64,000 bases of DNA from Buxus sempervirens (lineage: Eukaryota > Streptophyta > Magnoliopsida > Buxales > Buxaceae), in assembly GCA_947561395.2 (NCBI GenBank), contig OX387193.1:12400001-12464000 (forward strand). The letters are read 5' to 3'. Position 1 is the stretch's first letter; every line of letters starts with the position of its first letter. The notes below the pieces were generated by a model. The model searched no databases. It was not told the DNA's origin and saw nothing but the letters and a program-made list of their open reading frames with translations. The translations under genes and the position numbers were made by a program. Shown here in pieces: positions 29,860 to 63,374 of the stretch.

Positions 29860-29992
29860 AACCGTATACACAGTACGGTCCAGCCCTGCCCGTATTCAAA
29901 TTACGAGCAAGCCGTGCCCGTATAGCAAACACGGGCGAGCCCAGCCCGTATAATCAATACGGGCGAACCCAGCCAGTGTACTAAATGCGGTT
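29860..29992. repeat. Palindrome array, five units, 28-bp period (A leader)
   Basis: 21-bp units start at 29860, 29888, 29916, 29944 and 29972. The core is CCG-N11-CGG with half-site GCCCGTA/TACGGGC in the middle units; the second has CGA and the last CAG/CGG. With a 28-bp period, CCG and CGG alternate every 14 bp. Confidence 0.93.
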
Positions 29993-30606
29993 TTACGGAA
30001 CTCTTTTATGTTTTCTCAGTTTTTACATGGTTTGATCACTTTGATTGCTCATCCAAACATACGGTTCACCCAGTGCAGGGCTTCTAAACTGTCCCAAAGT
30101 GGACTTTGACCTTTTTGCTAAAACACATGCTTAGGAGGGTACATGCACCCTCCGAATTGACACCATATTCTAGAATTTGGTACCCTTTTGTTGCCTCTTG
30201 TATGAACATTGGGTAAGATTGATTCTAAACAGAGTTAGAAACTCTTCCTATAGGCTACACCAATTTTAGGAAACATGCATATTTTGGGACCAATTTTATC
30301 CCGAACCAATGGGCACCATGACACCCCTATGACATGAAAATAATGGAAAACAATAGGATTACTTTGTTACCTTGTTTACCTTCAATATGGCATCCGCATT
30401 ATGCCCTGGTTTGTAATCAATGCAAACGGCATTCCCACAATTACAAGCCCATATCCCCACGTAATTGTGTACTTTAGCCAAAAACGTGTAACTCCACCTT
30501 CAAGCGTAGGGGTTTTGGGTTTTGGCTTAATGGCAACTTAGCACTCAAGCCTAGTGATAACCAGAATCCCAGATCCACGTTATCATTACATCATTAGCTC
30601 AAAGTT

Positions 30607-30710
30607 CTAAGGTGAATGTTTTCACTTTCGCTTTCCGAAGTATCGACCTCGTTGCGCCAAGCTACACACATTCGGGTTCAACTTCCTATAGGTTAAGGGT
30701 AGGCTGTGTA
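30607..30710 (-). other. Conserved leader block of A
   Basis: About 100 bp including GTTGCGCCAAGCTACACACA and TTCAACTTCCTATAGG are nearly the same in B (60917-61020) and C (55530-55640), although the surrounding leaders of C and A differ much more. It lies about 500-600 nt downstream of the primer binding site in element sense. Confidence 0.7.
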
Positions 30711-31196
30711 AAAAAAATAAAAGGTGCACAGTGAATTGTAAAAATAAGGTGCATTCACAACGTCCCAAACCCTTGCCACTCTTTTCGTAGCCATGCATAA
30801 ACAAACCAAGGCATAATATGAAGGCATATTTAAAGTAAACAAATAAATACAACAATCCTATAGCTCCTAAAACATGCTCATAAAAAAATCATCTAATCAT
30901 GCAAACATATGATCATGTTATACACCAAAAATCATCATGGAGATCATGCTGAAAATTAAAACATGCTATCATAAAAATATAGCAAGAAATAAGCATGGTT
31001 CAGCAAAACGGACCTACCCTACGCATGTTTGTAGAAACAATCCTATAAATCAAAATTAAGCATGTTTCTACCCCCATGAATTCTTAAGCAATCATTCAGA
31101 TTTAAAACATACTCAACATGCTTAAGAACACAAAATAGTAAGCAAATCAAAGAAATAAAAAACATGAACAAACACCAAAAGGCTGAAATCCTCAAG

Positions 31197-31214
31197 TCCC
31201 CAGCAGAGTCGCCA
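31197..31214 (-). other. Primer binding site of A
   Basis: On the minus strand TGGCGACTCTGCTGGGGA starts two bases after the 5' LTR end. It begins TGG, as needed to pair with a tRNA CCA end. Ogre/Tat elements are usually reported with a tRNA-Arg primer; I have not matched the tRNA. Confidence 0.75.
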
Positions 31215-31216
31215 GT

Positions 31217-33023
31217 TGTGAGACATGGGAAAAAATAAAAAATCCTTTTGACTTCCTCTCTCATCACACGGGATTAAATAAAACAAAGAGTCGCTACCAT
31301 TCAATTTAGGTGTGAATGGACACCAAATATTAAATAAGCACAAAAGGCAATTTTAGGGTAAAAATAACCCTCGTAAAAAAACCAGAGATGGGTAAGGGGA
31401 TTAAGTTATGAACAGGGGAAGGTGTTAGGCACCCCTATTCATCCACACAAGGTGGTTGCCAGGTATTGTTCATGTTTTTCAAAGAAAAAAGGCTTGCTAT
31501 AAAAATCAGGAAAAATAAAAAAAAGACAAAATATATGGTTTTTTCATATGAATAGTCTGATTGATCCAGAACTTTCAAATATAATCATACCATTCCTAGG
31601 GTTTCATGATCAAAACAAAATTGAGATAAAATCAAATAAAACCAATTTAAAGTGAAAAATCCAAAAATCTGGCTTCAAGTTAAATTCTGGAAATCTAGAA
31701 AAATATCATTTTTATAAAATATTTCAAAATTGAACTTGAACAGTCCAGGACATAGGTAGAGCCCAAATTTCACATTAAATCAAAAAATAAAAACCAAAAA
31801 AACCCATGTTGATGGAAGACATCAAAAGGGGAGAACTTAGACCGTAGGGTCTTCTCTCAATAATGAAAAACAATTTAAAAACCACATCATGAAACCTAAA
31901 AGTTATTTTCAGGCTTCTGGATCCAGATCTATCATATTGATCATGATAAATCCAAGATCTTAGCGTAAAACCACAAAAATCACGAAAATAGTGCTGTAGG
32001 TGCAAAAGTGGTGAAAATCCAAATTTTATCAAAAAGTGGGGATCTACTGCTATAAACACCATGAACTCATAGGATTCATCCAGATATATCATAAAAACAA
32101 TTAAAATATGATCAATATATTCAAAGCAGCCACATCTCACAGATTTGAGCACATGGGGGTCTACCCTACGGATCCAGCTGTTCTCTTTTCCCTAGCTCTC
32201 TCTTCACGTTTTACGGCTAGAGAGTATTCTTGAGGTACTTGGAGATAGGTTTGGTTACACAAGCACAATCAAAGGCCTTATTCTAAAAAAGGAGAAAAAC
32301 AGATATGGGGTTCTATTCTAGGGATCCACTTGTTCTCTTTTCCCCTAGCTCTCTCTTCATGTTTTATGGCTAGAGAGACTCTTGAGGTACTTGGAGGTAG
32401 GTTTAGGAATACTAGATAAAAGATGGCCTTATTCTACAGCAATAGAGATGATCCTATTACTTCTAGAATTAAAGACAGAAAATAAAAGGGAAAAGGTACT
32501 TACCTGGATTGAGCAAGCAAAGCAGCAGGGGTTCCTCTTCTTCTCTTGGAGCTCTTGAGTCTTCAAAATTTCGTGTTCTTTTGCTTGAGGAAAGGCCCTC
32601 TATTTATAGGCAAACACAGGGGTATAGTTGGTCCAAGGTTTGGCAAGATAGAGTTTCAGTTTGAGTTAAACACAAGATCATGCCAATCCTTTATCCACAA
32701 GGATAAATGAGATAATTCGAACAGATAAATAAGAGAATTCGCTTATCCAAGAGAGATTTTTGGGTGCAGATAAGGCTCAAAAATAAAAAAGGTAAAATTC
32801 GCACAAAGACCCCCGTGCCCGTATATATATTACGGTCGCGCCCTGCCTGTATTATTAATACGGGCATGCTGTGACCGTATATCAACTGCAGGTATGACCA
32901 GTCCGTAAACAAAATACGGTCATGATCAGTTTGGCCAGATTTTACACTTTTTTGACCTATTTCAAATCCCAATTAATATTTTCAATTATTTTCTCATTTT
33001 TCGTGCAATTTGGGGTGTCTACA
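31217..33023 (-). mobile_element. 5' LTR of A, full length (1807 bp)
   Basis: In element sense it starts TGTAGACACCCC, then a four-unit palindrome array (32921-32817), TATA box (32608-32601), and two tandem copies of a block with GCCRTAAAACRTGAAG near 32210 and 32365. It ends CCCATGTCTCACA next to the primer binding site. Compared with the 3' LTR, the shared parts look nearly identical. Confidence 0.9.
32817..32921. repeat. Palindrome array, four units, 28-bp period (A 5' LTR)
   Basis: Units start at 32817, 32845, 32873 and 32901. The array lies about 210 bp upstream of the TATA box (32608) in the element's U3. Confidence 0.93.
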
Positions 33024-33028
33024 GTTTG

Positions 33029-35299: not shown

Positions 35300-35304
35300 A
35301 ATAT

Positions 35305-37680: not shown

Positions 37681-37685
37681 ATAAT

Positions 37686-38143: not shown

Positions 38144-39960
38144 TGTGAGACATGGGAAAAAAATCATATTCAATGACTTCCTCAATCATCACACGGGATT
38201 GGTTAAAAACACAGAGTCGCTACCATTCTGTTTAGGTGTGAATGGACACCAAAATATCAAATAAGCACAAAAGGCAAATTTAGGGTAAAAATAACCCTCT
38301 AAAAAAAACAACCAGAGATGGGTAAGGGGATTAGGTTATGAACAGGGGAAGGTGTTAGGCACCCCTATTTATCCACACAAGGTGGTTGCCAAGTATTGTT
38401 CATGTTAAAATAAAGGAAAAAGGCTTGCTATAAAAATCACAAAAAATCACAAAAAAGACAAAGGTGTATGGTTTTTTCATACGAACATCCTGATTGATCT
38501 AGAACTTTCAAATATGATCATACCATTCCTAGGGTTTCATGATTAAAACAAAATTAAGATAAAACCAAATAAAACCAAAATAAAGTGAAAAATCCAAAAA
38601 TCTGGCTTCAAGTTAAATTCTAGAAATCTAGAAAAATATGATTTATTATAAAATATTGCAGGATTGAATTTGAACAGTCCAGGACATAGGTATAGCCCAA
38701 ATTTCACTTTAAATCAAAAAATAAAAACCAAGAATACCCACGTTGATGAAGAACATCAAAAGGGGAGAACTTAGACCGTAGGGTCTTCTCTCAAAAGTAA
38801 AAAAGGACTCCAAAACCATATCATGAAACCCTAGAATTTACTTTCAGGCTTCTGGATCCAGATCTACCATATTGATCATGATAGATCCAGGATCTTAACC
38901 TATAATCACAAAAATCACGAAAACAGTGCTGTAGGTGCAAAAGTGGTGAAAATCCAAATTCTAGAAAAAATTGGGGATCTCATGCTATAAACATCATGAA
39001 CTCATAAGATTAATCCAGATTAAATCACAAGATCATTAAAACATTATCAGGATATCAAAAACAGCCACATCTCATAGATTAGAGCACATGGGGGTCTACC
39101 CTACGGATCCACCTGTTCTCTTTTCCCCTAGCTCTTTCTTCGTTTTATGGCTAGAGAGGATTCTTGAGCTACTTGGAGATAGGTTTGGGTACACAAACAC
39201 AATCAGAGGATTTATTCTAGAAAAAAAGGAGAAAAACAGATATGGGGTTCTATTCTAGGGATCCACCTGTTCCCCTTTCCCCTAGCTCTCTCTTCACGTT
39301 TTACGGCTAGAGAGACTCTTGAGGTACTTAGAGACAAGTTTAGGAATACAAGACAAAAGATGGCCTTATTCTACAGCAATAGAGAAGATCCTATTACTTC
39401 TAGAATTGAAGACAGAAAATAAAAGGGAAAAGGGACTTACCTAGATTGAGCAAGCAGAGCAGCAGGGATTCCTCTCTTCTCTTGGAGTTCCTTGGACTTC
39501 AAATTTTCGTGGCATTTTGCTTGAGGAGAGACCCTCTATTTATAAGCAAAGGCAGGGGTATGGTTGGTCCAAGGTTTGGCAAGATAGAGTTTCAGATTGA
39601 GTTAAACACAAGGATAATGCCCATCCATAGCCAACAAGGATAAATGAGATAATTCGAACAGATAAATAAGAGAATTCGTTTATCCAAGAGAGATATTTGG
39701 GTGCAAATAAGGCTCAAAAATCAAAAAGGTAAAATTCGCACAAAGACCCCCGTGCCCGTATATATATTACGGTCGCGCCCTGCCCGTATTATTAATACGG
39801 GCACGCCGTGACCGTATATCAACTGCAGGTTTGACCAGACCGTAAACAAAATATGGCCATGACTAGTTTGGCCAGATTTTACACTTTTTTGACCTGTTTC
39901 AAATCCCAATTAATATTTTCAATTATTTTCTCATTTTTAGTGCAATTTGGGGTGTCTACA
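38144..39960 (-). mobile_element. 3' LTR of B (1817 bp)
   Basis: Full-length partner of the LTR at 61570-63374, with four palindromes at 39754, 39782, 39810 and 39838 (28-bp steps) and a TATA box near 39537-39544. Few differences to the 5' LTR are seen by eye. Confidence 0.9.
39754..39858. repeat. Palindrome array, four units, 28-bp period (B 3' LTR)
   Basis: Units start at 39754, 39782, 39810 and 39838. The second is the clean GCCCGTA...TACGGGC form; the last has decayed to ATGGCC on one side. Confidence 0.92.
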
Positions 39961-39976
39961 ACTGCCCCCTCTTTGC
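39961..39976 (-). other. Polypurine tract of B
   Basis: On the minus strand GCAAAGAGGGGGCAGT precedes the LTR start. Confidence 0.8.
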
Positions 39977-43451: not shown

Positions 43452-45266
43452 CTAGGATTCTCCCATTTCAATTGCCCTTGCTTCATTTTCTTCTTGTATG
43501 AAGAGTGATTCCATACCCTTCGGACAATCATTATGGTCCATACTGAATTCCTGTTCAACATCCAGTGCTAGGTCATTTGTTTGCTCAAACTGCTCAAAGG
43601 GAATTGTTTGCACCTCCTCTGCCCTTTCACCTTTCATTTCATTTTCTTTCAACTTCAGCTTAAAATCTGCCCCTGTGTGAGTCTCTTTCTCCATATGGCC
43701 CCCTTCATCTTCTTTTTCAAAGTAAACTCGGACTATGGTACCAACTGGAGCAATAAGTAGAGAAGGGTCAAATCTTTTTTTTCCTGAAAAAATTGACCCT
43801 ATTGCATTTAAGCTACTTGCCCCATTGTTATCGGTTGGTGGGATGGGTGTAACTGAATTGAATGATAATGAATTATTATCCAACAAATCCTGGATTGCAT
43901 GCTTTAGGGCCAAGCAACGATCTGTGGTATGCCCTGGAGTGCTCATATGATACTCACAGATTGCAGATGAATCATAACCATTCCCCTTACTTGCATGAGG
44001 ATTTGGAAACCTCAAAGTCACATAACCCTTCTGAAGTAAGGTAGGCAAAAGTTCAGATGGTCTCATAGGCAGTTTAGAAAATTCCCTTCTCTTCCTTACT
44101 TCTATTTCCTCCTTAACAGGCTGTGCAGAAGATACATTAATTTGAATAGGCAGCAAAGGAAATTGATGGGTTGGCTTGATAGGAGGTGGATGGGCATTGA
44201 TTTGAAAGGGTTCCCTAGGAAGTTGCACCATATTCACTTCTGCTTCTCTCCTTTCTTCATTCTTTCTTCTTCCATTACCATTCTCCTTTTTCTGTGTAGA
44301 GAAAGTGGTGGAAGCTTCCTGGTTCAACACTGCAGAGTAATCAGCTATTTTCCCAGACTTGATCCCATCTTCAATTCTGTCTGCCACTTGCACTAGGGCA
44401 GCAAAGTTGGTGGTAGTTTGACCCACCAAGTGACTGTAAAACGGTTGCCCCAGTGTGCTGATGAAAGTGGAGATCATTTTTAGCTCCAGCATAGGTGGCC
44501 TGACTTGAGAGGCCGTCTCCCTCCACCTTTTAGCATACTGCCTTACAGATTCGTCCCCTCCTTTGCTCATTCTCATTACATCGTACCTATCTGGCCCGAT
44601 CTCTGAATTAAACTTGTATTGAGCTAAAAAGGCATCTGCTAGGTCTTTCCATCTTTTGATCCTTCCATGGTCTAAGGTGGCAAACCAGCTCAAAGCAGTT
44701 CCAGTCAAGCTCCTTTGGAAGAGCTTAATCAGTATGCCATCATCCCGGCCAAACTGGCATAAAGCCCCGCAGTATAACTTCAAATGGCTCATTGGGCAGC
44801 CAGTGCCATCATATTTGTCCAGGTTTGGGCACTTAAACTTGGCTGGCAGGTTAACATTGGGGTATAGGCACAAGTCTTCAAAGTTGGTGCCCCCAAAGTT
44901 GTTCACCCATTTTACTTCCCTCAGTTCATCTTGGATCATCTCCAAGCTGTGCATGAATTTCCTTTCAACCTCCTCCCTCATTCCCTCTTTTTCTTTTTCT
45001 TTCTCAGACTCAGCAATATCCTCCCTGATCAGTATAGGTTCAGGGGTAGGTTCAGAAATGGGTTCAGGAATAGGTTGAACCGGAGGTGGGATATTGATTG
45101 GAGGTGGAGGTGCTTGGTTGGAAGTGGAGGCTTGGTTATGGGCTTGGACTTGCTGGGCCCGCACCGCCAGTAAGTTTTCTAGCATTCGGGCAAGTCTTGC
45201 CACTTGCACTTGCAGCAGGGCAATGTCTTGACTAGGACTATCGGCTTGATTCTCAGTGGGATTCAT
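43452..45266 (-). CDS. gag: Gag protein of element B, intact, 604 residues
   Basis: ATG at 45266, no frame break. The domain order is as in A: Leu/Val heptads, Pro-rich linker, PKFKCPNLDKYDG-type segment with HLKLYCGALCQFG, capsid core with LSWFATLDHGRIKRWKDL, then ICEYHMSTPGHTTDRC, a C-X2-H-X5-H-X4-C knuckle, and ALKHAIQDLLDNN. The acidic C-terminal tail of about 100 residues is longer than in A, which has lost this part. No protease or later pol domain follows. Differences to A are scattered and mostly conservative, as expected for a frame that was under selection until recently. Confidence 0.88.
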   Translation of the reverse strand: MNPTENQADSPSQDIALLQVQVARLARMLENLLAVRAQQVQAHNQASTSNQAPPPPINIPPPVQPIPEPISEPTPEPILIREDIAESEKEKEKEGMREEVERKFMHSLEMIQDELREVKWVNNFGGTNFEDLCLYPNVNLPAKFKCPNLDKYDGTGCPMSHLKLYCGALCQFGRDDGILIKLFQRSLTGTALSWFATLDHGRIKRWKDLADAFLAQYKFNSEIGPDRYDVMRMSKGGDESVRQYAKRWRETASQVRPPMLELKMISTFISTLGQPFYSHLVGQTTTNFAALVQVADRIEDGIKSGKIADYSAVLNQEASTTFSTQKKENGNGRRKNEERREAEVNMVQLPREPFQINAHPPPIKPTHQFPLLPIQINVSSAQPVKEEIEVRKRREFSKLPMRPSELLPTLLQKGYVTLRFPNPHASKGNGYDSSAICEYHMSTPGHTTDRCLALKHAIQDLLDNNSLSFNSVTPIPPTDNNGASSLNAIGSIFSGKKRFDPSLLIAPVGTIVRVYFEKEDEGGHMEKETHTGADFKLKLKENEMKGERAEEVQTIPFEQFEQTNDLALDVEQEFSMDHNDCPKGMESLFIQEENEARAIEMGES

Positions 45267-45320
45267 GGTGCGAGCTCTTGATCTGGTTACAGAAGCTATG
45301 GCTACAATTGTACTTGGTAC

Positions 45321-45340
45321 CTGGAAAAAATAAAGAAAAA
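45321..45340 (-). promoter_or_regulatory. Candidate 3' splice site before gag (B)
   Basis: T-rich run then CCAG|GTACC on the minus strand, 55 nt before the ATG, as in A and C. Confidence 0.4.
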
Positions 45341-45493
45341 TATCAGTACCAATTTAATCTCATTCACATACCTATAAATGCCTATATGCAAGCTGGGGTG
45401 AACACGAGTTTGGATTTTTTTCTTTATTTACTTTTTTTTGAATTGTTGGAATATTCTAGGGCTTCCAACAGGTCCCACAAAAAACGAAAAGGA

Positions 45494-45946
45494 TCTGAAA
45501 TTCAAAGGCTTTCAGGGGCCCAGGGGTATTTTTGAAAAAAGTCTGAAATTCAAAGGCTTTCAGAGGCCCAGGGATATTTTTGGAAAAAGTCTGAAATTCA
45601 AAGGCTTTCAGAGGCCCAGAGATTTTTGAGAAAGGTCTGAAATTCAAAGGCTTTCAGAGGCCCGAGGAAAAAGATCTGAAATTCAAAGGCTTTCAGAGGC
45701 CCAAAGAAAAAAGATCTGAAATTCAAAGGCTTTCAGAGGCCCAAAGGATAGGTGTTTATAATTCAGAGGCTTATAGACGGCCCAAAGAATATGTATCTAT
45801 AATTCAGAGGCTTATAGACGGCCCAAAGGATATGTGTCTAAAATTCAGAGGCTTTTAGATGGCCCAAAGAAATGATTGTCTAAAATTCGGAGGCTTTTAA
45901 ACAGCCCAAAGGATATGTGTCTATAATTCAGAGGCTTATAGACGGC
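45494..45946 (-). repeat. Tandem hairpin array of B leader, distal part (about 11 units)
   Basis: Six TCTGAAA-type units followed by five GTCTAWAA-type units, loops TTCAAAGGC or TTCAGAGGC. The array is cut within GACGGC|CC by element C and resumes at 59603. Confidence 0.9.
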
Positions 45947-48721
45947 TGTGAGACATGGAAAAAATCACGGAAGATGATCATCCCTCCGTCAACACACGGG
46001 CTCGACATAAAAACATGGGAGTCGCCACCATTCAAGTTTTAGAGGTGTGAATGGACACCAAAAGATTAAAAACAAACAAGCAAAAAATAGATAAAAGACA
46101 AATTCTAGGGTAAAAATAACCCTACTTGAAAATCAAATCCAGAGATGGGTAAGGGGATTAGATTATGAACGGGGGAAGGTGTTAGGCACCCACATTCACC
46201 CACACAAGGTGGTTGCCAAGTGTTGCTCATGCTAAAGAAAATAAGAAAGCTTGCTAAAAATCATTAAAAACCTTGAAAAAGGACAAATGTATGATATCTT
46301 CACATGAAAATCCAAATGAATTCCAGATCCTCTTTTATGTCAATATCATTTCTGGAATATCACAAAAAGATGGAAATCAAAGCAAAAGTTGCACAAAACC
46401 AAGTTGATGCAAATCCGGGGAATTCGGTAAAAAGTAATGCCATTTGTCTTGAAATCATTCAAATCCAATCTTAAATTTATCCAAACCAAATCCATTTGAA
46501 AGATTATGGTAAATAAAAGTCTCATGCAAAATTTCGATTAAATCCGGTTGAAATTTTAAGAGTTATGCCTCTTCTAAAGTTGCTGTTGGAGATAATTGAA
46601 AGTAACAAGTAAGCTAGTTTGGAAAATCACCTAGAAAACTCGGCTTCATAAAAATCCATGAAATTTGGTGTCAATGAAGTCTGTATGGCTGTCTTTCAAA
46701 TGAAACTGGCCTCATATAGAAACTCATTCGGATGTGCCTTGGGTGACTTCCCGAACAGGCCCCGAGGATCACAGATTAACCCATAAAAGTGCTGTTGAGC
46801 AGTTCTGAGTAAATCTGCTACCCACGACACAATTTGAATCAAACAATTATGAAACTAGACTCATAAAGGAGTTCCTAGAAACAAAAATCACTCGAATCGG
46901 ATTTAAAACAATCAGATGTCGCCCATTCGAAGTGATAGGTTCAACAGTTTTACCTGAAATGACCTCTCAACTTCGGCAGAATGGTGTCAAAAATCTGCTT
47001 CATAGAAATTAATGAAATTTGGTAGGCATAAACTAGACAGCCTCACCTTTCTCATGGTTCTAGAATCACTCCAAAATGCATCCGGATGATGAAGTTATGA
47101 GTGTCCGAAGTTAGGGTACAGTTGCTGTCAAGTTAAGCCTTTTTTGGAGAAAAACAATTCAAAACTGTGACAAAGTGTGTGCAATTCGTGCAAGATGAAT
47201 GCAAATCCTTTAAAAATCATTTAAAGACATTCCAGAATTGATTGAGACCATTTATTTTAGGTTTATCACAACGAATGTAATAAATCCCCAAATATGAGCC
47301 TATCCTGCCAAAATCATGCTATGTATGTTCAAGTGTGAAAAATCATTCAAGAACAATATAACGACATAGCATGCATTCATATTTATCAAAATAAGGTTCT
47401 AAAAGCAACATAGGGATCCGTTCCATTATCGTTTCCCTTAGTTCTCTCTTCCCGTTAAACACGGTTCTTCAAGGTAATCTTAGGGTACTTTGAATATGAA
47501 ACGGGCTTCACAGATTCAAAAGGCTTATGCAAAATAAGGTTCTAGCACCAGGATCAATCCCCAGTCTCGTTTCTCCTAGATCCCGCCTTCACGTTTTACG
47601 GCTAGGGGGAGTCTTGAGATACTTTGGGCCAGGGAAGGGTTTTCACACACATAGAAGGCCTTATTCTACAGAAAGGTAGAAGAAGAGATCTAGAATCTAG
47701 AATATAAAAACAGAAAATAAAGAAGAGGTTTGAGGCTTACCTGGGGTTCTGGAAGCAATCCGGCAGCGGTTCCCTTCTTCACTCGGAGCTCTTGGATCTC
47801 CAACTTATGGCCATTTGCTTAAGGAGGAGCCTCCTATTTATAGGCAAAGGATAGGGTTAGGGTTGCAGGGATGGTAGACACAACCTAATGTCTAGAGCCC
47901 ACCAACCTTAACCCTAAGGCCATTTCCGAGATTTCCCCTCATTTAATGAGGGACATGATGGTAAAAAGTGAAATCTCTCAGAAAACCCTAATTTTGAGCA
48001 AAACTAATGTATCCGGCACATCAGGTCGGATATACAAGCGCCTATGTGTATCCGGCATATGTTGCCGGATACATTAAGGTCTACTTGTATCCGGCATTAT
48101 CTGTCGGATACAATAAAGATCGTTTGTATCCGACATTATCTATCGGATACAATAAAGATGTTTTGTATCCGACATTATCTGTCGGATACAAAAAAAGAAG
48201 AAGCTTTTATCCGAATTTTAACACAGGCAATACTTATTTACATGTAATATCGTTTAAGTAAATTTGTAAATAAGCAAACACCCCCCATTTGAATCCATTA
48301 AAAATAGTTCCAGACCCAAATTCCAAGTGAATAAAAAGTCAACTTTCCAGTTCTAGGCAAAATTCCGATTTTTCAGGTCTGGAAAAAAGGTTCAATATGT
48401 TAAAACCAAGGTATTCTTCAAGATTTAAAATCTCAAAAAATTCTTTTATGCAATAACATGGCTAAAAACCTGATTACCGGGAAAAATTATCTTGAAATCT
48501 GGCTTTAAAAAATATTTCATTTTCTGGGGTCAAAAGTCAACAAAATTCAATCGGAAAAAGTTTGACTTTGCATAAAAGATTGAATTCGGGCATTTTCCTT
48601 TGCTGTTTTGGATTCAAATGGGTTAAGTACCTCAAACCCAATGCAAAGAATTGAAAATTCCAATAAAATATTTCTCTCCTTCAAGATTGATAAAAAATCG
48701 TGCAATTTTGCGGTGTCTACA
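45947..48721 (-). mobile_element. 3' LTR of C (2775 bp)
   Basis: Partner of 56767-59597. It has the palindrome array 48189-48009, TATA box (47842-47835) and conserved GCCGTAAAACGTGAAG block near 47595. It lacks about 56 bp present in the other LTR near 59090-59145. Confidence 0.88.
48009..48189. repeat. Palindrome array, five units, 39-bp period (C 3' LTR)
   Basis: 25-bp units start at 48009, 48048, 48087, 48126 and 48165. Form: GTATCCG-N11-CGGATAC. In element sense the array ends about 170 bp upstream of the TATA box. Confidence 0.95.
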
Positions 48722-48737
48722 ACTGCCTCTCTTTGCT
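48722..48737 (-). other. Polypurine tract of C
   Basis: On the minus strand CAGCAAAGAGAGGCAGT precedes the LTR start; one G is replaced by A relative to A and B. Confidence 0.75.
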
Positions 48738-52061: not shown

Positions 52062-53680
52062 TTACAGTGTAGTCATGGTCATCTGCACCATTTCTTCTTC
52101 TTTTGGCTCTTCTTTTCCTTCTTCTTCTTCATTCTTTTTTTCTTCCCCAACCATCATATTTTCTTGTTCTTCTTCCCTTTCAAAATAAACCGAGATAGTT
52201 GACCCTATAGGAGCAATAAGTTGAGAAGGATCAAATCTTCTTTCTCCAGAGAAAATTGCCCCTATTGCATTTGAGCTGCCTGCCCCATTGTTGCTGGTGG
52301 GAGGAGGAGTGGGTGTGACTAAATTGAGTGATAAAGAGTTATTATCTATCAAATCCTGAATTGCATGCTTTAGGGCCAAGCAATGATCAGTGGTATTCCC
52401 TGGAGTGCTCATATAATATTCACAGATTGCAGATGGATCATAACCCTTCCCTTCTTGCATGAGGATTTGGCAACCTCAAAGTCACATAACCCTTTTGAAG
52501 TAGGGTAGGCAAAAGTTCAGATGGTCTCATAGACAGTTTTGAAAACTCCCTTCTCTTCCTTACTTCTTTTTCCTCCTTCACAGGCTGTGCAAAGGGGACA
52601 TTAATTTGGATAGGCAGCAAAGGAACTGGATGGGCATTGATTTGAACGGGTCCCTTGGGAAGCTGCACCATATTCACTTCTGCTTCTCTCCTTTCCTCAG
52701 ATTTTTTCTTTCCATTACCATTTCCCTTGTTATGAGTGGAGTCTTCTTGACTGATCATGGCAGAATAATCAATTATCTTGCCAGATTTGATCCCATCCTC
52801 AATCCGGTCGGCCACTTGTACCAGGGCAGCAAAATTGGTGGTGATCTGACCCACCAGATGGTTGTAGAAGGGCTGCCCCAGTGTGCCCACAAAAGTTGAG
52901 ATCATCTCGGGTTCCAGCATGGGTGGTCTAACCTGGGAGGCAGCCTCTCTCCACCTCTTGGCGTACTGCCTTACAGACTCTTCTTTCCCCTTGCTCATCC
53001 TCATCATGTCATACCGGTCTGGCACGATCTCAGAGTTGAATTTGTACTGGTCCAAGAAGGCGTCAGCCAAGTCCTTCCACCTTCTAATCCTGCCATGGTC
53101 CACGGTGGCGAACCACCTCAAGGCTGACCCTGTCAAATTCCTCTGAAAGAGTTGGATCAGTATGCCGTCATCTCGGCCAAACTGGCATAGGGCAATATAG
53201 TTTCAAGTGGCTCATAGGGCAACCCGTGCCATCGTATTTGTCGAAGTCCGGGCACTTGAATTTGGCCGGTAGACATACATCCAGGTACATGCACAAGTCA
53301 TCGAAGGTGGTACCTCCGTAGCTGTTTCCTCCTTTCACTTCCTTGAGTTCTTCTTGTATTCTCTCTATCCTGAGCAACATTTTTCTTTCCATTTATTCCC
53401 TGGCTTTTTCCTTCTCCATTTCTTTCTCAAATTCTGCTGTATTTTCCCTGATCAGAATCGCCTCAGGGACAGGTTCAGAAATGGGCTCAGGCATGGGTTG
53501 AGCCGGAGGTGGAATGTAAGCTTGAGGTGGCGGTGCTTGATGGGAAGTAGAGGCTTGCTTTTGGGCCTGAGCCGCCAGTAAGTCCCCAAGCATCTTGGCT
53601 AGATCAGCCACTTGCTCCTGCAGCTGAGCAAAGTCCTGAGCGGGTACGGTGGCTTGAGCTTGATTCTCCTCAGTATTCAT
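52062..53680 (-). pseudogene. gag: Gag of element C, broken
   Basis: The ATG at 53680 corresponds to that of A and B. Three breaks are visible by comparison: a TAA at 53395-53393 where A and B have Glu; a 5-nt deletion near 53195-53200 after HLKLYC; and a 2-nt deletion near 52450-52460 after NPHA, shortly before the zinc knuckle. Between breaks the capsid core (LRWFATVDHGRIRRWKDL) and knuckle (ICEYYMSTPGNTTDHC, in which two expected His are Tyr and Asn) are recognisable. The copy cannot make full-length Gag. Confidence 0.88.

Positions 53681-53823: not shown

Positions 53824-53866
<43 letters not shown>
53824..53866. repeat. TA microsatellite in C leader
   Basis: About 21 TA dinucleotides in a row, absent at the same place in A and B. 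Confidence 0.95.
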
Positions 53867-53869
<3 letters not shown>

Positions 53870-54027
53870 TGGTTTTTTTTTTTTATACTTGAGCTAAAAG
53901 AATTGTTGGAATATTTTAGGGCTTCCAACATGTCCCACAAGGTATGAAAATGATTGGTACGAAAAAGACCAACCAAAGGGTTGTTGGAATATTTTATGGC
54001 TTCCAAAGGTCCCAAAGAATGAGAAAT

Positions 54028-54392
54028 GTCTAAAATATAGAGGCTTTTAGACGGCCCAAAGGATACGTGTCTATAATTCAAAGGCTTATAGATGGCCCAA
54101 AAAAGTTGTGTCTAAAATTCAGAGGCTTTTAGACGGTCCGAAGAAATGATTTGTCTAAAATTTAGAGGCTTTTAGACAGCCCAAAAAGGCTGTGTCTAAA
54201 ATTCAGAGGCTTATAGACGGCCCAAAATAGGTTGATGTTTGAAATTCAGAGGCTTTCAAATGGCCCAAAAAGGTTGTGTCTAAAATTCAGAGGCTTTTAG
54301 ACGGCCCAAAGGATATGTGTCTATAATTCAGAGGCTTATAGACGGCCCAAAATAGGTTGATGTTTGAAATTCAGAGGCTTTCAAATGTCCCA
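54028..54392 (-). repeat. Tandem hairpin array of C leader (about 9 units)
   Basis: Units with stems GTCTAAAA/TTTTAGAC, GTCTATAA/TTATAGAC and TTTGAAA/TTTCAAA around loop TTCAGAGGC. Related hairpins GTTGGAA/TTCCAAC (about 53903 and 53981) and CTTGG/CCAAG (about 54437) flank the array. Confidence 0.88.
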
Positions 54393-54784
54393 CAAATGTT
54401 TTGATTTGATTGATAAAAATAACCAACCAAAGGTTTCTTGGAATATTCTAGGGCTCCCAAGTGTCCCACAAATTTTTGATTTGATTGATACGAAAAAGAC
54501 CAACCAAGGGGTTTTTTTTCTTTTTGAAATTTGCTGAGTTTTCTCAGTTTTCAAGTTCAAAAGCTTGATTGACACATGTTTGAATTGAATTGATATCAAA
54601 AAAATATGACACCTTAGCTTGCTCTTTGAGTTTCAAAATTAGGTTAAATCCTAAAAGAATATTTTTTTTTATTTTTTGAAACATTTTTATATTTTCTTTG
54701 GGGTGCCTAAGGATTATCCACAGTGTTTAGGCATTTTATTCTAAAAATTCTGGCTGAAAAAACCAATTTATACATTTTCTGCAT

Positions 54785-54926
54785 GTATCCGGTATGAAGT
54801 GTCGGATAAGGCTATGGCTTATTGTATCCGGCAACAATGACTGGATACACGCATACACCTTTGTAACCGATAACATATGCCAGATATGAATGGAATTATT
54901 CTTAACCGGCCTGAGTTGCCGGTTAA
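54785..54926. repeat. Palindrome array, four units, 39-bp period (C leader)
   Basis: 25-bp units start at 54785, 54824, 54863 and 54902. The first is GTATCCG-N11-CGGATAA; the last is the perfect TTAACCGGC-N7-GCCGGTTAA, so both arms changed together. The second and third carry single decay changes (TGG, CAG) in place of CGG. Confidence 0.92.
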
Positions 54927-55529: not shown

Positions 55530-55640
55530 ATTCTAAGGTAAATGTTTTCACTTTCGCTTTCCGAAGTAACGACCTCGGTGCGCCAAGCTACACACATTTG
55601 GGGTTCAACTTCCTATAGGTAATGGGTAGGTTGTGCAAAT
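55530..55640 (-). other. Conserved leader block of C
   Basis: Homologue of 30607-30710 (A) and 60917-61020 (B), including GTGCGCCAAGCTACACACAT and TTCAACTTCCTATAGG. Confidence 0.7.
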
Positions 55641-56746: not shown

Positions 56747-56764
56747 TCCCCAGTGGAGTCGCCA
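56747..56764 (-). other. Primer binding site of C
   Basis: TGGCGACTCCACTGGGGA on the minus strand, two bases after the 5' LTR. It differs from A at positions 10 and 12. Confidence 0.75.
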
Positions 56765-56766
56765 GT

Positions 56767-59597
56767 TGTGAGACATGGAAAAAATCACCGAAGATGATCA
56801 TCCCTCCGTCAACACACGGGCTCGACGTAAAAACGTGGGAGTCACCACCATTCAAGGTTTAGAGGTGTGAATGGACACCAAAAGATTAAAAACAAACAAG
56901 CAAAAAATAGATAAAAAACAAATTCTAGGGTAAAAATAACCCTACTTGAAAATCAAACCCAGAGATGGGTAAGGGGATTAGATTATGAATGGGGAAAGGC
57001 GTTAGGCACCCCCATTCACCCACACAAGGTGGTTGCCAAGTGTTGCTCATGCTAAGGAAAATAAGAAAGCTTGCTAAAAATCATTAGAAACCTTGAAAAA
57101 GGACAAATGTATGATATCTTCACATGAAAATCCAAATGAATTCCAGATTCTCTTTTATGTCAATATCATTTCTGGAATATCACAAAAAGATGGAAATCAA
57201 AGCAAAAGTTGCACAAAACCAAGTTGATGCAAATCCGGGGAATTCGGTAAAAAGTAATGCCATTTGTCTTGAAATCATTCAAATCCAATCTTAAATTAAT
57301 CCAAACCAAATCCATTTGAAAGCTTATGGTAAATAAAAGTCTCATGCAAAATTTCGATTAAATCTGGTTGAAATTCTAAGAATTATGCCTCTTTTAAAGT
57401 TGCTGTTGGAGATAATTGAAAGTAACAAGTAAGCAAGTTTGGAAAATCACCTAGAAACATCGGCTCCATAAACATCCATGAAATTTGGTGTCAATGAAGT
57501 CTGTATGGCCATCTTTAAAATGAAACTAGCCTCATATAAAAACTCATTCGGATGTGCCTTGGGTGACTTCCCGAACATGCCCCGAGGATCACAGATTAAC
57601 CCAGAAAAGTGCAGTTGAGCAGTTCTGAGTAAATCTGCTACCCACGAGACAATTTTAATCAAAAAATTATGAAACCAACTGGATTTAAAAGTAGACTCAT
57701 AAAGGAGTTCCCAGAAAAGAAAATCACTCGAATCAGATTTAAAACAATCAGATGACGCCCATTCGAAGTGATAGGTTCAACAGTTTGACCTGAAATGACC
57801 TCTCAACTTCGGCAGAATGGTGTCAAAAATCTGCAACCTAGAAATTAATGAAATTTGGTAGGCATAAACTAGATAGCCTCACCTTTCCCATGGTTCTGGA
57901 ATCACTTCAAAATTCATCCGGATGATGAAGTTATGAGTGTCCGAAGTTAGGGTACAGTTGCTGTAAAGTTAAGCCTTTTTTGGAGAAAAACAATTCAAAA
58001 CTGTGACAAAGTGTGTGCAATTCGTGCAAGATGAATGCAAATCCTTTAAAAATCATTTAAAGACATTCCAGAATTGATTGAGGCCATTTATTTTAGGTTT
58101 ATCACAACGAATGTAATAAATCCCCAAATATGAGCCTATCCCGCCAAAATCATGCTATGTATGTGCAAGTGTGAAAAATCATTCAATAACAATATAACAA
58201 CATAGCATGCATTCATATTTATCAAAATAAGGTTCTAAAAGCAACCTAGGGTTCCGTTCCATTATCGTTTCCCTTATTTCTCTTTCCCCGTTAAACACGG
58301 TTCTTCAAGATAATCTTAGGGTACTTTGAATATGAAACGGGCTTCACAGATTCAAAAGGCTTATGCAAAATAAGGTTCTAGCACCAGGATCAATCCCCAA
58401 TCTCGTTTCTCCTAGATCCCGCCTTCACGTTTTACGGCTAGGGGGAGTCTTGAGATACTTTGAGCCAGGGAAGGGTTTTCACACACATAGAAGGCCTTAT
58501 TCTACAGGAAGGTAGAAGAAGAGATCTAGAATCTAGAATGTAAAAACAGAAAATAAAGAAGAGGTTTGAGGCTTACCTGGGGTTCTGGAAGCAATCCGGC
58601 AGCGGTTCCCTTCTTCACTCGGAGCTCTTGGATCTCCAACTTATGGCCATTTGCTTAAGGAGGAGCCTCATATTTATAGGCAAAGGCTAGGATTAGGGTT
58701 GCAGGGATGGTAGACACAACCTAATGTCTAGAACCCTCAAACCTTAACCCTAAGGCCATTTCCGAGATTTCCCCTCTTTTAATGAGCGACATGATGGTAA
58801 AAAGTGAAATCTCTCGGAAAACCATAATTTTGAGCAAAACTAATGTATCCGGCACATCAGGTCGGATATACAAGCGCCTATGTGTATCCGGCATATGTTG
58901 CCGGATACATTAAGGTCTACTTGTATCTGGCATTATCTGTCGGATACAATAAAGATCCTTTGTATCCGACATTATCTGTCGGATACAATAAAGATGTTTT
59001 GTATCCGACATTATCTGTCGGATACAAAAAAGAAGAAGCTTTTATCCGAATTTTAACACAGGCAATACTTATTTACATGTAATATCGTTTAAGCAAATGT
59101 CCTCATATTTTTTAATCTCCATTTACGTAAGATGTTACATGTAAATAAGCAAACACCCCCCCATTTGAATCCATTAAAAATAGTTCTAGACCCAAATTAT
59201 AAGTGAATAAAAAGTCAATTTTCCAGTTCTAGGCAAAATTCCGATTTTTCAGGTCTGGAAAAAAGGTTCAATATGTTAAAACCAAGGTATTCGTTAAGAT
59301 TTAAAATCTCAAAAAATTCTTTTATGCAATAACAAGGCTAAAAACCTGATTACCGGGAAAAATTATCTTGAAATCTGGCTTTAAAAAATATTTCATTTTC
59401 TGGGGTCAAAAGTCAACAAAATTCAATCGGAAAAAGTTTGACTTTGCATAAAAGATTGAATTCGGGCCTTTTCCTTTGCCGTTTTGGATTCAAATGGGTT
59501 AAGTACCTCAAACCCAATGCAAAGAATTGAAAATTCCAATAAAATATTTCTCTCCTTCAAGATTTATCAAAAAGCGTGCAATTTTGCGGTGTCTACA
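56767..59597 (-). mobile_element. 5' LTR of C (2831 bp)
   Basis: Partner of 45947-48721 and highly similar by eye. It holds the palindrome array 58845-59025, a TATA box near 58671-58678, and the conserved GCCGTAAAACGTGAAG block near 58430. Confidence 0.88.
58845..59025. repeat. Palindrome array, five units, 39-bp period (C 5' LTR)
   Basis: Units start at 58845, 58884, 58923, 58962 and 59001. The third has CTG for CCG; otherwise the arrays of both LTRs agree. Confidence 0.95.
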
Positions 59598-59602
59598 ACT
59601 GC

Positions 59603-60030
59603 CCAAAAAGGTTCTTGAAAAAGGTCTGAAATTCAAAGTCTTTCAGAGGCCCAAAGATTTTTTTGAGAAAAAGTCTGAAATTCAAAGGCTTTCAGAGGCC
59701 CAAAATGGCTGAAATTCAAAGGCTTTCAGAGGCTCAAATGATCTGAAATTCAAAGGCTTTCAGAGGCCCAAAAGATCTGAAATTCAAAGGCTTTCAGAGG
59801 CCCAAAAGGTCTGAAATTCAAAGGCTTTCAGAGGCCCCAGGATTTTTAAGAAAAAGTCTGAAATTCAAAGGCTTTCAGAGGCCCAAGGATTTTTTGAGAA
59901 AAAGTCTGAAATTCAAAGGCTTTCAGAGGCCCAAGGATTTTTTTGAGAAAAAGTCTGAAATTCAAAGGCTTTCAGAGGCCCAGGGAGTTCTTGAGAAAAG
60001 GTTTGAAATTCAAAGGCTTTCAGAGGCCCA
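59603..60030 (-). repeat. Tandem hairpin array of B leader, proximal part (about 10 units)
   Basis: All units are of the TCTGAAA/TTTCAGA type with loop TTCAAAGGC, two with one-base changes in a stem. Confidence 0.9.
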
Positions 60031-60184
60031 GGGATTTTCTCTCACATTTATATTTATTTATTTATTTCTTTTTTTTGTTTTTTTTAAGCATTTTATTCAA
60101 ACTCATTTCCCTTTTTTCATCATTTAAAGGTTAAAGGAACAAAATTTAGTGGGAAAAACTGATTTAAATTGAATTTTGCGCGAA

Positions 60185-60317
60185 AACCGCATATTCACCA
60201 TGGTCCGGCCTTGCCCGTATTCAAATTACGAGCAAGCCGTGACCGTATGATTAACACGGGCGAGCCCAGCCCGTATAACCAATACGGGCGAGCCTAGACC
60301 GTGTACCAAATGCGGTT
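60185..60317. repeat. Palindrome array, five units, 28-bp period (B leader)
   Basis: Units start at 60185, 60213, 60241, 60269 and 60297, the same spacing as 29860-29992 in A. Confidence 0.93.
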
Positions 60318-60916
60318 TTACGGAGCTCTTTTATGTTTTTCCAGTTTTTATATGGTTTGATCACTTTGATTGCTCATCCAAACATACGGTTCACCCAGTG
60401 CAAGGCTTCTAAACTATCCCAAAGTGGACTTTGACCTATTTGCAAAACACATGTTTAGGAGGGCACATGTGCTCTCCAAATTGACACCATACTCAAGAAT
60501 TTGGTACCCTTTTGTTGCCTCTTGTATGAACATTGGGTAGGATTGATCCTGAACAGAGTTGAGAACTCCTCCTATGGGCTACACCAATTTTAGGAAATAT
60601 GCATATTTGGGACCAATTTTATCCCAAACTAATGGCTATCATGACACCCCTATGACATGAAAATAATGCAAAAATTTAAGGTTACCTTGTTACCTTCAAT
60701 ATGGCATTCGCATTATGCCCTGGTTTGTAAGCCATGCAAATGGCCTTTCCACAATTACAAACCCATATTCCCACGTAATTGTGTATTTTAGCCAAAAACG
60801 TGTATCTCCACCTTCAAGCGTAGGGGCTTTGGGTTTTGGCTTAATGGCAACTTAGCACTCAAGCCTAGTGATCACCAGAATCCCAGATCCACATTATCAT
60901 CATATCATTGGCCCAA

Positions 60917-61020
60917 AGTTCTAAGGTGAATGTTTTCACTTTCGCTTTCCGAAGCATCGACCTCGTTGCGCCAAGCTACACACATTCGGGTTCAACTTCC
61001 TATAGGTTAAGGGTAGGCTG
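60917..61020 (-). other. Conserved leader block of B
   Basis: Nearly the same as 30607-30710 in A; lies between the palindrome array and the primer binding site. Confidence 0.7.
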
Positions 61021-61549
61021 TGTAAAAAAAATAAAATGTGCACAGTGCATTGTAAAAATAGGGTGCATTCACAACGTCCCAAACCCTTGCCACTATTTTC
61101 GCAGCCATGCATAAAGAAACCAAGGCATAATAGGAAAGCATATTTAAAGTAAACAAATACACAAAGCAATCCCTATAGCACCTAAAACATGCTCATAAAA
61201 ATCATCCAATCATGCAAACATATGATCATGCTATACAACCCAAAAACACATCATGGAGATCATGCTGAAAATTAAAATATGTTATTATAAAAATATAGCA
61301 AGAAATAAGCATGGTTTAGCAAAACGAACCTCCCCTATGCATGTTTCTAGAAACAATCCTATAAATCAAAATTAAGCATGTTTCTTCCCCCATGAATTCT
61401 TAAGCAATAAATCAGATTTAAAACATACCCAACATGCTTAAGAACACAAAATAGCAAGCAAAACAAAAACATGCTAAAAACATAAAATAGCAAGCGAATC
61501 CAAAAATCTCAAAAACATGAACAAACACCAAAAGGCTCAAATCCTCAAG

Positions 61550-61567
61550 TCCCCAGCGGAGTCGCCA
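61550..61567 (-). other. Primer binding site of B
   Basis: TGGCGACTCCGCTGGGGA on the minus strand, two bases after the 5' LTR. Confidence 0.75.
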
Positions 61568-61569
61568 GT

Positions 61570-63374
61570 TGTGAGACATGGGAAAAAAATCAATTCAATG
61601 ACTTCCCTGATCATCACACGGGATTGGTTAAAAACACAGAATCGCCACCATTCTGTTTATGTGTGAATGGACACCAAAATATCAAATAAGCACAAAAGGC
61701 AAATTTAGGGTAAAAATAACCCTCTAAAAAAAACAACCAGAGATGGGTAAGGGGATTAGGTTATGAACAGGGGAAGGTGTTAGGCACCCCTATTCATCCA
61801 CACAAGGTGGTTGCCAGGTATTGTTCATGTTAAAATAAAGGAAAAAGGCTTGCTATAAAAATCACAAAAAAGACAAAAGTGTATGGTTTTTCATACGAAC
61901 ATCCTAATTGATCCAGAACTTTCAAATATGATCATACCATTCCTAGGGTTTCATGATTAAAACAAAATTAAGATAAAACCAAATAAAACCAAAATAAAGT
62001 GAAAAATCAAAAAATCTGGCTTCAAGTTAAATTCTAGAAATCTAGAAAAATATGATTTTTTATAAAATATTGCAGGATTGAACTTGAACAGTCCAGGACA
62101 TAGGTATAGCCCAAATTTCACTTTAAATCAAAAAATAAAAACCAAGAATACCCACGTTGATGAAGAACATCAAAAGGGGAGAACTTAGACTGTAGGGTTT
62201 TCTCTCAAAAGTAAAAAAGGACTCAAAAACCATATCATGAAACCCTAGAATTTACTTTCAGGCTTTTGGATCCAGATCTACCATATTGATCATGATAGAT
62301 CCAGGATCTTAGCCTATAATCACAAAAATCACGAAAACAGTGCTATAGGTGCAAAAGTGGTGAAAATCCAAATTCTAGAAAAAATTGGGGATCTCATGCT
62401 ATAAACATCATGAACTCATAAGATTAATCCAGATTCAATCACAAGATCATTAAAACATTATCAGGATATCAAAAACAGCCACATCTCACAGATTAGAGCA
62501 CATGGGGGTCTACCCTACGGATCCACCTGTTCTCTTTTCCCCAGCTCTCTCTTCACGTTTTACGGCTAGAGAGGATTCTTGAGGTACTTGGAGATAGGTT
62601 TGGGTACACAAACACAATCAGAGGCTTTATTCTAGAAAAAAAGGAGAAAAACATATATGGGGTTCTATTCTAGAGATCCACCTGTTCCCCTTTCCCCTAG
62701 CTCTCTCTTTACGTTTTACAGCTAGAGAGACTCTTGAGGTACTTAGAGACAAGTTTAGGAATACAAGACAAAAGATGGCCTTATTCTACAGCAATAGAGA
62801 AGATCCTATTACTTCTAGAATTGAAGACAGAAAATAAAAGGGAAAAGGGACTTACCTGGATTGAGCAAGCAGAGCAGCAGGAATTCCTCTCTTCTCTTGG
62901 AGTTCCTTGGACTTCAAATTTTTGTGGCCTTTTGCTTGAGGAGAGACCCTCTATTTATAAGCAAAGGCAGGGGTATGGTTGGTCCAAGGTTTGGCAAGAT
63001 AGAGTTTTAGATTGAGTTAAACATAAGGATAATACCCATCCATGGCCAACAAGGATAAATGAGATAATTCGAACAGATAAATAAGAGAATTCGCTTATCC
63101 AAGAGAGATATTTGGGTGCAGATAAGGCTCAAAAATCAAAAAGGTAAAATTCGCACAAAGACCCTGTGCCCGTATATATATTACGATCGCGCCCTACCCG
63201 TATTATTAATACTGGCATGCCGTGACCGTATATCAACTGCAGATTTGACCAGACCGTAAACAAAATACGATCATGACCAGTTTGGCCAGATTTTACACTT
63301 TTTTGACCTGTTTCAAATCCCAATTAATATTTTCAATTATTTTCTCATTTTTAGTGCAATTTGGGGTGTCTACA
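61570..63374 (-). mobile_element. 5' LTR of B (1805 bp)
   Basis: Partner of 38144-39960. In element sense: TGTAGACACCCC, palindromes, TATA box (62959-62952), two tandem copies of the block with TAAAACGTGAAG-type sequence, end CCCATGTCTCACA. Confidence 0.9.
63168..63272. repeat. Palindrome array, four units, 28-bp period (B 5' LTR)
   Basis: Units start at 63168, 63196, 63224 and 63252. Several CGG cores have decayed to CGA or TGG. Confidence 0.92.

Follow-up and report, generated by a model that had tools for sequence, protein, structure and literature searches.

CCG-N11-CGG dyad arrays at sense and antisense promoters of large LTR retrotransposons in Buxus sempervirens, with element-encoded plant mobile domain proteins as candidate readers

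The window analyzed in this work is a stretch of 64,000 nucleotides from the genome of Buxus sempervirens (contig OX387193.1, positions 12,400,001 to 12,464,000). It is made up of nested long terminal repeat (LTR) retrotransposons on the minus strand, named A, B and C, and of the 3' end of one plus-strand element, E0. These elements and their relatives elsewhere in the genome carry arrays of palindromic units in which CCG and CGG are kept exactly 11 bp apart (CCG-N11-CGG), while the bases flanking this core differ between three families, designated AACCG, GTATCCG and GCCCGTA after their half-sites. Arrays are located in the U3 (unique 3') region of the LTR, ahead of the sense promoter, and upstream of antisense genes encoding proteins with a plant mobile domain (PMD). 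The half-site changes in concert at these positions from one family to another. Such arrays are very probably binding arrays of a common dimeric factor. The reading slightly favored here, on the basis of sequence comparisons, is that a single dimeric factor per family would co-regulate the sense and antisense promoters, this factor being most likely a PMD protein encoded by the element itself.

Spaced dyads of constant geometry

CCG-N11-CGG is matched 36 times in the window for 1.19 expected (standard deviation 0.97; maximum of 4 in 100 dinucleotide shuffles), so that the arrays first described in a sequence-only reading of this DNA are real. The neighboring spacings N10 and N12 are found once and four times respectively, every other spacing from 0 to 40 is found at most 12 times, and the highest count at any spacing in 100 Markov resamples is 7. 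Six of the 36 matches (at 523, 6507, 25362, 26864, 29132 and 35397) do not belong to arrays and look like chance occurrences. The arrays of E0, A, B and C comprise 46 units, in line with the figure of about 50 first advanced: 30 have a perfect core and 16 a single core mismatch, which is a C>T or G>A change in 14 cases. The units follow each other at steps of 28 bp in A and B and of 39 bp in C; one E0 array has 39-bp steps and the U3 steps of this element are irregular (38, 23, 117 and 68 bp). With steps of 28 bp, the two kinds of half-site alternate at a regular 14-bp interval.

The position of the arrays relative to the TATA box, TATAAATA, was measured in the five LTR copies with at least one perfect unit, starting where the last such unit ends; the damaged copy of A was left out. 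This distance is 204 bp in E0, 211 bp in A, 212 bp in B and 171 bp in both copies of C, which agrees with the earlier estimate of about 170-210 bp. The B copy at 61570-63384 contains no perfect unit; its four one-mismatch units are nevertheless found at the same places, 211 bp from the TATA box.

The whole source genome (676.5 Mb) was then searched with spaced-dyad patterns, using the reversed patterns as controls. GTATCCG-N(0-30)-CGGATAC is found 30,971 times, 30,553 of them at N11, for a total of 47 and none at N11 with the reversed control. The predominance of N11 over N10 and N12 that had been anticipated in other copies of these families is thus observed. CCCGTA-N(0-30)-TACGGG is found 12,806 times (1,703 for the reversed control), and its spacing is N7, equivalent to CCG-N11-CGG, in 49 of the 50 matches listed, which here and below are the first 50 along contig 1. 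The steps between units were approached in the same way, with spacings counted by hand. Among the 50 matches listed for CGGATAC-N(0-30)-GTATCCG, 34 are at N14 (the 39-bp step), 2 at N13 and 14 at N27, the latter being overlaps that start from a GGATAC inside the center of a unit. For TACGGG-N(0-30)-CCCGTA, the total of 8,874 is below the 18,510 of the reversed control, and only the spacing of the 50 matches listed was therefore used: 44 are at N9 (the 28-bp step), one at N8 and five elsewhere. The bare core, in contrast to these longer half-sites, is no outlier in a 120-kb genome sample (twelve 10-kb stretches, with 9,907 masked bases), with 12 matches at a spacing of 11 against 12, 12 and 16 at spacings of 4, 13 and 40. 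In the genome scan proposed in the sequence-only reading, the signal is thus seen with GTATCCG and CCCGTA, and it requires such longer half-sites.

Arrays at the promoters of antisense PMD genes

Large elements on contig 1 are flagged by identical arrays that lie about 20.5 kb from each other. The organization of such relatives is illustrated by L032, in which the open reading frame (ORF) at 2242-5202 matches RVT_1, RT_RNaseH, RVT_3 and rve, in that order, corresponding to reverse transcriptase, a pair of RNase H domains and integrase. An additional RNase H domain is a hallmark of the Tat clade. L032 shows two Tat/Ogre features, namely the Gypsy pol order with this second RNase H and an extra ORF of the PMD type. 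In the pol-bearing relatives, two antisense genes, PMD1 and PMD2, are located between pol and the 3' LTR. The arrays at their promoters, absent from the sequence-only reading, provide a second set of co-varying sites together with a candidate protein. The first antisense ORF of L032 (PMD1) gives hits to DUF7745 (7e-19) and to the plant mobile domain (5e-13), and at its promoter an inner array of GTATCCG units is followed by a TATA box on the antisense strand. The second PMD gene, after PMD1, matches PF10536 (6e-14), and two further GTATCCG units precede its ORF by about 1 kb. The matches listed on contig 1 include 21 GTATCCG clusters, of which 16 were read, the other five being LTR partners of these; all 16 lie in this type of element, 11 in the U3, 4 at the PMD1 promoter and 1 in the leader.

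The same plan is found in E0, which comes in from the left edge of the window. Its left flank contains the end of pol (a stretch 75.6% identical to the pol end of L032), PMD1, PMD2 (reading frames at L033 6001-3467, minus strand) and the 3' LTR, which starts at about 1066 in the window. PF24924/PF10536 in PMD1 and PF10536 in PMD2 are common to E0 and to the L032/L054 element, and antisense PMD genes are therefore present in two families. E0 has AACCG units behind pol, ahead of PMD1, ahead of PMD2 (window 633-727) and in the U3. Two details of the sequence-only reading have to be corrected in this respect. The E0 arrays (633-1450) fall outside the positions between which it had located the phenomenon, and the array at 633-727 does not belong to a leader but lies upstream of the 3' LTR and adjoins a minus-strand TATA box at 613-618. 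This array is presumably at the antisense promoter of PMD2, the promoter being linked to the ORF by position.

The regions upstream of PMD1 were then compared in 20 stretches per search, drawing on three genome search hit lists made of the best-scored candidates (best 121 of 8,373, best 150 of 5,442 and best 118 of 5,751 first-look candidates). In the GTATCCG family, all 20 stretches contain three or four perfect units at 38/39-bp steps; five of them have three, the rest four, and a double step is seen where one unit decayed. The last unit ends 16-17 bp before TATAAA in 19 of the 20, the exception being L051, where it has decayed. In the AACCG family, 18 of 20 stretches contain an AACCG array with steps of 28, 41 and 28 bp, comprising four units with at most one core mismatch in 16 cases and three units in two (L070, L072). 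The two misses correspond to a stretch of coding sequence (L064) and to an array replaced by foreign sequence (L068). A search with the DUF7745 profile gave further families, among which 8 of 20 upstream stretches contain one to four perfect GCCCGTA-class units (only one in L093) at 28/27-bp steps, followed by a TATA box at a common place (position 534). These eight, grouped by this common layout and not by a protein tree, constitute the third family.

Several observations accompany these results. One DUF7745 family, encoded by a single exon of about 498 codons (C6:43794347, C9:26480406 and others), has open frames in many of the copies listed, with only one lone unit upstream. GCCCGTA-class arrays with steps of 28, 28, 110 and 28 bp also stand next to a minus-strand TATA box at L076 178-388 and L077 162-372; the L076 units are found again, identical, 12 kb away. 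Transposase_28 (PF04195), considered as a candidate antisense gene, gave no match in the source genome, and the control genomes were likewise without a match. No public homolog of PMD1 passed, and no relative was found in the PDB. As regards leader arrays, the leader of C is 80% identical (600 columns) to that of a 20-kb relative, L075, which has a 39-bp array of its own, and no clear TATA box was seen by eye in the A and C leaders or in L031 that would make them antisense promoters.

Concerted change of the half-site in three families

A distance of about 4.7-4.85 kb separates the PMD1 array from the start of the 3' LTR in the AACCG and GTATCCG families. Two 1.4-kb stretches were chosen in the third family from this distance, as a prediction. 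Both contain the LTR start TGTAGACACC and a GCCCGTA-class U3 array located 195 and 203 bp before a TATA box, and both show a second array of the same class upstream of the LTR, at the place of the PMD2 promoter. In the better-preserved of these elements (C22), the steps are 28-27-28 in all three arrays (U3, PMD1 and PMD2 position). When the arrays of the two elements are compared pairwise in both orientations, identity reaches 20-24 of 24 positions in the cores, which is partly due to the alignment of the arrays on their units, and 11-15 of 16 in the inner bases; the centers (5-13 of 28) and spacers (4-11 of 20) agree near chance level. The half-site and the geometry are thus what is kept.

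Altogether, the family's own half-site was found in most units at 11 of the 11 array positions read: U3, leader, PMD1 and PMD2 for GTATCCG; U3, PMD1, PMD2 and the end of pol for AACCG; U3, PMD1 and PMD2 position for GCCCGTA. In addition, L020 contains at 14-85 three CCG-N11-CGG units with steps of 27 and 28 bp, in sequence that resembles by eye a third-family U3. They border the 5' LTR of a GTATCCG-class element on its outer side, as if this element had been inserted into a third-family promoter.

In the window, A, B and C look like gag-only, non-autonomous elements; no family was recognized in ten further ORFs of at least 90 amino acids in or near them, a scan limited to ORFs of this size, and B is taken as non-autonomous for this reason. 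Their LTRs are related to those of PMD-bearing families, the best stretches being 73-82% identical to two third-family LTRs for A and B and 77-83% identical to GTATCCG-family LTRs for C. The gag-only elements therefore carry the half-site class of their PMD-bearing kin.

Constraint and symmetry of the units

The conservation of the units was evaluated in 24 aligned promoter copies. The mean pairwise difference is 0.035 in the half-sites (CCG/CGG plus four flanking bases) against 0.123 in the centers and spacers (Mann-Whitney p 2e-5, to be taken only as a guide because the copies are related). On a longer time scale, the PMD1 cores of the AACCG and GTATCCG families differ by 0.165 at nonsynonymous (dN) and 1.97 at synonymous (dS) sites over 159 codons; these genes have consequently been separated for long and are under purifying selection. 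Over this divergence the flanks changed and N11 stayed. The initial claim that family-specific flanks vary while spacing and symmetry stay is supported by these comparisons, and a dimeric protein with evolving recognition would be the simplest reading of such a pattern.

Passive amplification, in which the arrays would be nothing more than recent and unconstrained tandem duplications, was also considered. They are indeed short tandem repeats, and the LTR pairs are near copies, but the almost exclusive use of N11 in the spacing spectrum already contradicts this explanation, as do the equal steps found with unrelated centers and spacers at three places in one element and the geometry kept between families whose neighboring genes differ by a dS of about 2. 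It is hardly credible, and duplication free of symmetry constraint is not what is observed in the copies compared.

The symmetry itself is informative. In a set of 25 distinct GTATCCG units, 22 are symmetric at the inner positions 1/11 and 17 at 2/10 (shuffle means of 17.6 and 9.5), whereas only 6, 11 and 2 units show symmetry at 3/9, 4/8 and 5/7 (means of 8.5, 10.7 and 8.4), without any excess. Symmetry limited to the outermost inner positions is read here as the mark of two outward-facing protein half-sites and not of a stem. This bears directly on the idea that the units act as hairpins, either as cruciform DNA or as RNA stem-loops in transcripts including the 3' U3 and the leader. Many GTATCCG units are long-armed inverted repeats, and leader copies are expected in transcripts. 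A stem would nevertheless not be expected to end at inner position 2, nor the inner bases of AACCG units to be asymmetric; the PMD1-promoter arrays are upstream of their own TATA box, hence outside that transcript, and hairpins have no need for fixed steps between units. This explanation is accordingly very improbable.

Little more weight can be given to the possibility that the arrays attract or seed silencing, their dense CG and CHG sites being recognized by methyl-readers or serving as loci for small interfering RNAs. Every unit does provide both contexts, and the predominance of C>T and G>A changes among the decayed cores fits past methylation. Methylation contexts, on the other hand, require neither N11 nor fixed steps nor family-specific flanks, and the half-sites are conserved despite their mutable CpG, which argues for a benefit to the element.

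A putative element-encoded reader

In the mechanism proposed here, a dimer would read each dyad, its geometry being fixed by the CCG/CGG ends 11 bp apart, while the flanks and inner bases would set family specificity. The two to five units of an array, at their fixed steps, would load several dimers side by side, possibly in a cooperative manner. The same factor would act on the sense LTR promoter in the U3 and on both antisense PMD promoters; the site in the leader would be used by this factor as well or have another role. PMD1 or PMD2 would most likely control its own gene and the genomic transcript, as an activator or an anti-silencer, and the gag-only elements A, B and C, having kept the sites, would use the factor of their PMD-bearing kin. 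Since sites are also found at the antisense PMD promoters, an element-encoded factor would constitute the simplest circuit, and the change of class in concert at eleven positions suggests one reader per family. Homologous readers encoded by the elements could explain both the association of unrelated half-sites with one geometry and the presence of sites at the reader's own promoter, as in autoregulation. PMD1 and PMD2 are candidate readers by their position and by this concerted change. Taken by itself, the claim that the factor is element-encoded appears evenly balanced.

The main rival, considered rather unlikely, is that the arrays work as enhancers to which host dimeric transcription factors of one family bind, each element family having recruited a different paralog for its sense and antisense promoters. 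The placement upstream of TATA boxes in U3 and antisense promoters suits ordinary enhancers, and the U3 boxes of Tnt1, which are plant LTR enhancers, reportedly bind host factors. This explanation is weakened by the fact that all 16 of the GTATCCG clusters read, out of the 21 listed on one contig, lie in this element type, and a constant N11 with three different half-sites is easier to conceive if the readers are element-borne homologs. No plant factor is known to us with the CCG-N11-CGG geometry, no motif library having been searched for one.

A number of results weigh against the PMD proteins as readers, or against the generality of the system. No recognized DNA-binding domain was detected with Pfam in PMD1 or PMD2. 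In the AACCG-family stretches, no TATA box adjoins the array at the PMD1 promoter. Among the 20 stretches obtained with DUF7745/PMD, the 12 that do not belong to the third family comprise six without any unit, five (from the single-exon family) with one lone unit and one with a single AACCG unit; the arrays are therefore not a property of every PMD gene. The evidence in the third family is confined to the DUF7745 gene, the arrays and the LTR. Flanks also vary within a family, as the first leader unit of the GTATCCG family is AACCG-flanked and AACCG-like flanks are present on outer leader units in A and B. The class of the site follows the whole element, so that PMD is not separated from the other element genes. 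In the promoter copies, the sequence between array and TATA box is as conserved (0.035) as the half-sites, and the upstream sequence is intermediate (0.072). Finally, AACCG-N(0-30)-CGGTT is uninformative genome-wide (34,877 matches for 29,360 with the reversed control) because its half-site is too short and is swamped by other repeats.

A broader proposal, to which somewhat less than even credence is given, is that element PMDs are sequence-specific dimeric regulators reading dyads both at the LTR and at the antisense promoters of their own genes, with a half-site code exclusive to each family, the gag-only elements carrying the code of a PMD-bearing family. The whole would form an autonomous, co-evolving switch between sense and antisense transcription, and this might possibly represent the ancestral activity of the host MAIN/MAIL proteins. 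The arrays provide a precise candidate target (letters, spacing and promoters) and three natural specificity variants for the element-encoded PMDs. If the proposal is correct, giant LTR retrotransposons would bear a regulatory code of their own that splits them into separate control groups. It would then bear on the control of tens of thousands of sites and copies, on the mobilization of non-autonomous families and on the origin of silencing by host PMD proteins.

Organization of the window

The features of the window that relate to the arrays are collected in Table 1. C is nested inside B.

Table 1. Retrotransposon features and dyad arrays of the window
Element	Feature	Position	Strand	Remarks
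E0	PMD2-side array	633..727	-	three AACCG-N11-CGGTT units at 633 (one core mismatch), 672 and 711; 39-bp steps
E0	3' LTR start (TGTAGACACC) with U3 array	1066..1650	+	
E0	U3 array		+	five AACCG-N11-CGGTT units at 1188, 1226, 1249, 1366 and 1434; TATA 204 bp on
A	damaged LTR copy	from 18897		
A (damaged LTR copy)	U3 array	19588..19660	-	GCCCGTA class; 3 remaining units; 28-bp steps
A	gag ORF	23055..24830	-	591 amino acids; Retrotrans_gag
A	leader array	29862..29990	-	5 units; 28-bp steps; flanks of outer units AACCG/CGGTT-like
A	LTR	31217..33023	-	81.5% and 72.9% identity to two third-family LTRs
A	U3 array	32819..32919	-	in LTR 31217-33023; 4 units; 28-bp steps; 211 bp to TATA
B	3' LTR	38144..39970	-	96.2% identity to 61570-63384
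B (3' LTR)	U3 array	39756..39856	-	4 units; 28-bp steps; 212 bp to TATA
B	gag ORF	43452..45353	-	633 amino acids, stop to stop; Retrotrans_gag
B	leader array	60215..60315	-	4 units; 28-bp steps
B	5' LTR	61570..63384	-	
B (5' LTR)	U3 array	63170..63270	-	4 units, one core mismatch in each; 28-bp steps
C	3' LTR	45947..48727	-	94.7% identity to 56767-59603
C (3' LTR)	U3 array	48013..48185	-	GTATCCG class; 5 perfect-core units; 39-bp steps; 171 bp to TATA
C	gag ORF piece	52438..53202	-	254 amino acids; Retrotrans_gag
C	leader array	54789..54922	-	4 units, two with one core mismatch; 39-bp steps
C	5' LTR	56767..59603	-	
C (5' LTR)	U3 array	58849..59021	-	5 units, one with core mismatch; 39-bp steps; 171 bp to TATA

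About 200 bp of A (20937-21136), B (41152-41338) and C (49576-49793) resemble a stretch past the 3' end of the E0 PMD1 (L033 1140-1349). It is as if the three elements had derived from PMD-bearing ones after the loss of pol and PMD. Tandem repeats are found upstream of gag in the region 25058-60008 of the window (24984-25914, 29317-29726, 45474-45946, 53998-54403 and 59601-60038). Their units are short inverted repeats around a constant loop, TTCARAGGC, with a stem of at least 7 pairs in 41 of 50, and at least three stem sequences have both arms changed together. This situation looks like an array of RNA hairpins, distinct from the DNA dyads.

Other features were also noted. The region 5680-6561 contains repeats of 40 to 268 bp in which palindromic GGGGCGGTAA...TTACCGCCCC units are found, resembling the sub-terminal repeats of a CACTA element. 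A Myb_DNA-bind_3 ORF (10890-11294, minus strand) and a DDE_Tnp_4/Plant_tran fragment (12764-13087, minus strand) are probably the remains of a PIF/Harbinger transposon.

Comparison with known systems

No title or abstract describing such arrays was found in the literature, although most subscription journals were outside the search and priority is not proven; the leads followed for LBD and Tnt1 gave nothing on the CCG-N11-CGG geometry. As far as searched, three features are new: the spaced dyad, its use at sense as well as antisense promoters in a retrotransposon, and the connection with PMD genes. A similar geometry is that of the Gal4-type fungal Zn2Cys6 dimers, which read CGG-N11-CCG. Two three-base ends, a gap of 11 bp and, for Gal4, a dimer as reader are the points of likeness. 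The half-sites described here are however outward (CCG-N11-CGG) and not inward; units that follow each other at 28-bp steps are likewise separated by 11 bp, which produces CGG-N11-CCG as a by-product.

Antisense genes located between pol and the 3' LTR are also a feature of Retand elements, in which ORFs with Transposase_28 are predicted to bind DNA and have been proposed to play a regulatory role, together with family-specific tandem repeats (PMC11963269). The protein family (PF04195) is different from that found here, and the accessible part of this report describes no dyad sites (PMC11963269). As regards PMD genes, they were found in 57% of the Ogre elements surveyed (PMC6317226), and the clades PMD-A1 and PMD-A2 are confined to Gypsy elements (PMC5418596). 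The presence of two PMD genes in one Gypsy element is shared with the present families, and PMD1 and PMD2 may correspond to PMD-A1 and PMD-A2. In the parts of these two papers that are available, no function, target or palindrome array is described for the element-encoded PMDs (PMC6317226, PMC5418596). Host PMD proteins silence transposons in Arabidopsis (PMC5418596, PMC7156037), and MAIN/MAIL1 have been tied to a promoter motif named 'DOWN' and to transposon control (PMC7156037). These are host genes, for which the accessible text reports no dyad geometry (PMC7156037), the letters of the DOWN motif not having been compared.

The nearest mechanism, by analogy, would be that of the VANDALs. These Mutator-like elements are DNA transposons. 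In Arabidopsis, their VANC anti-silencing proteins act with tandem motifs, VANC binding being associated with methylation loss (PMC5735166). According to the available part of this work, the VANC21 motif, YAGTATTAY, is a 9-mer arranged in arrays of a single orientation (PMC5735166), which differs from the spaced dyad described here. The likeness resides in motifs that are particular to a family and concentrated in the non-coding parts of the element. A mobile element combining cis arrays specific to its family with a reader that it probably encodes itself is, in this respect, of a kind already known from VANDAL.

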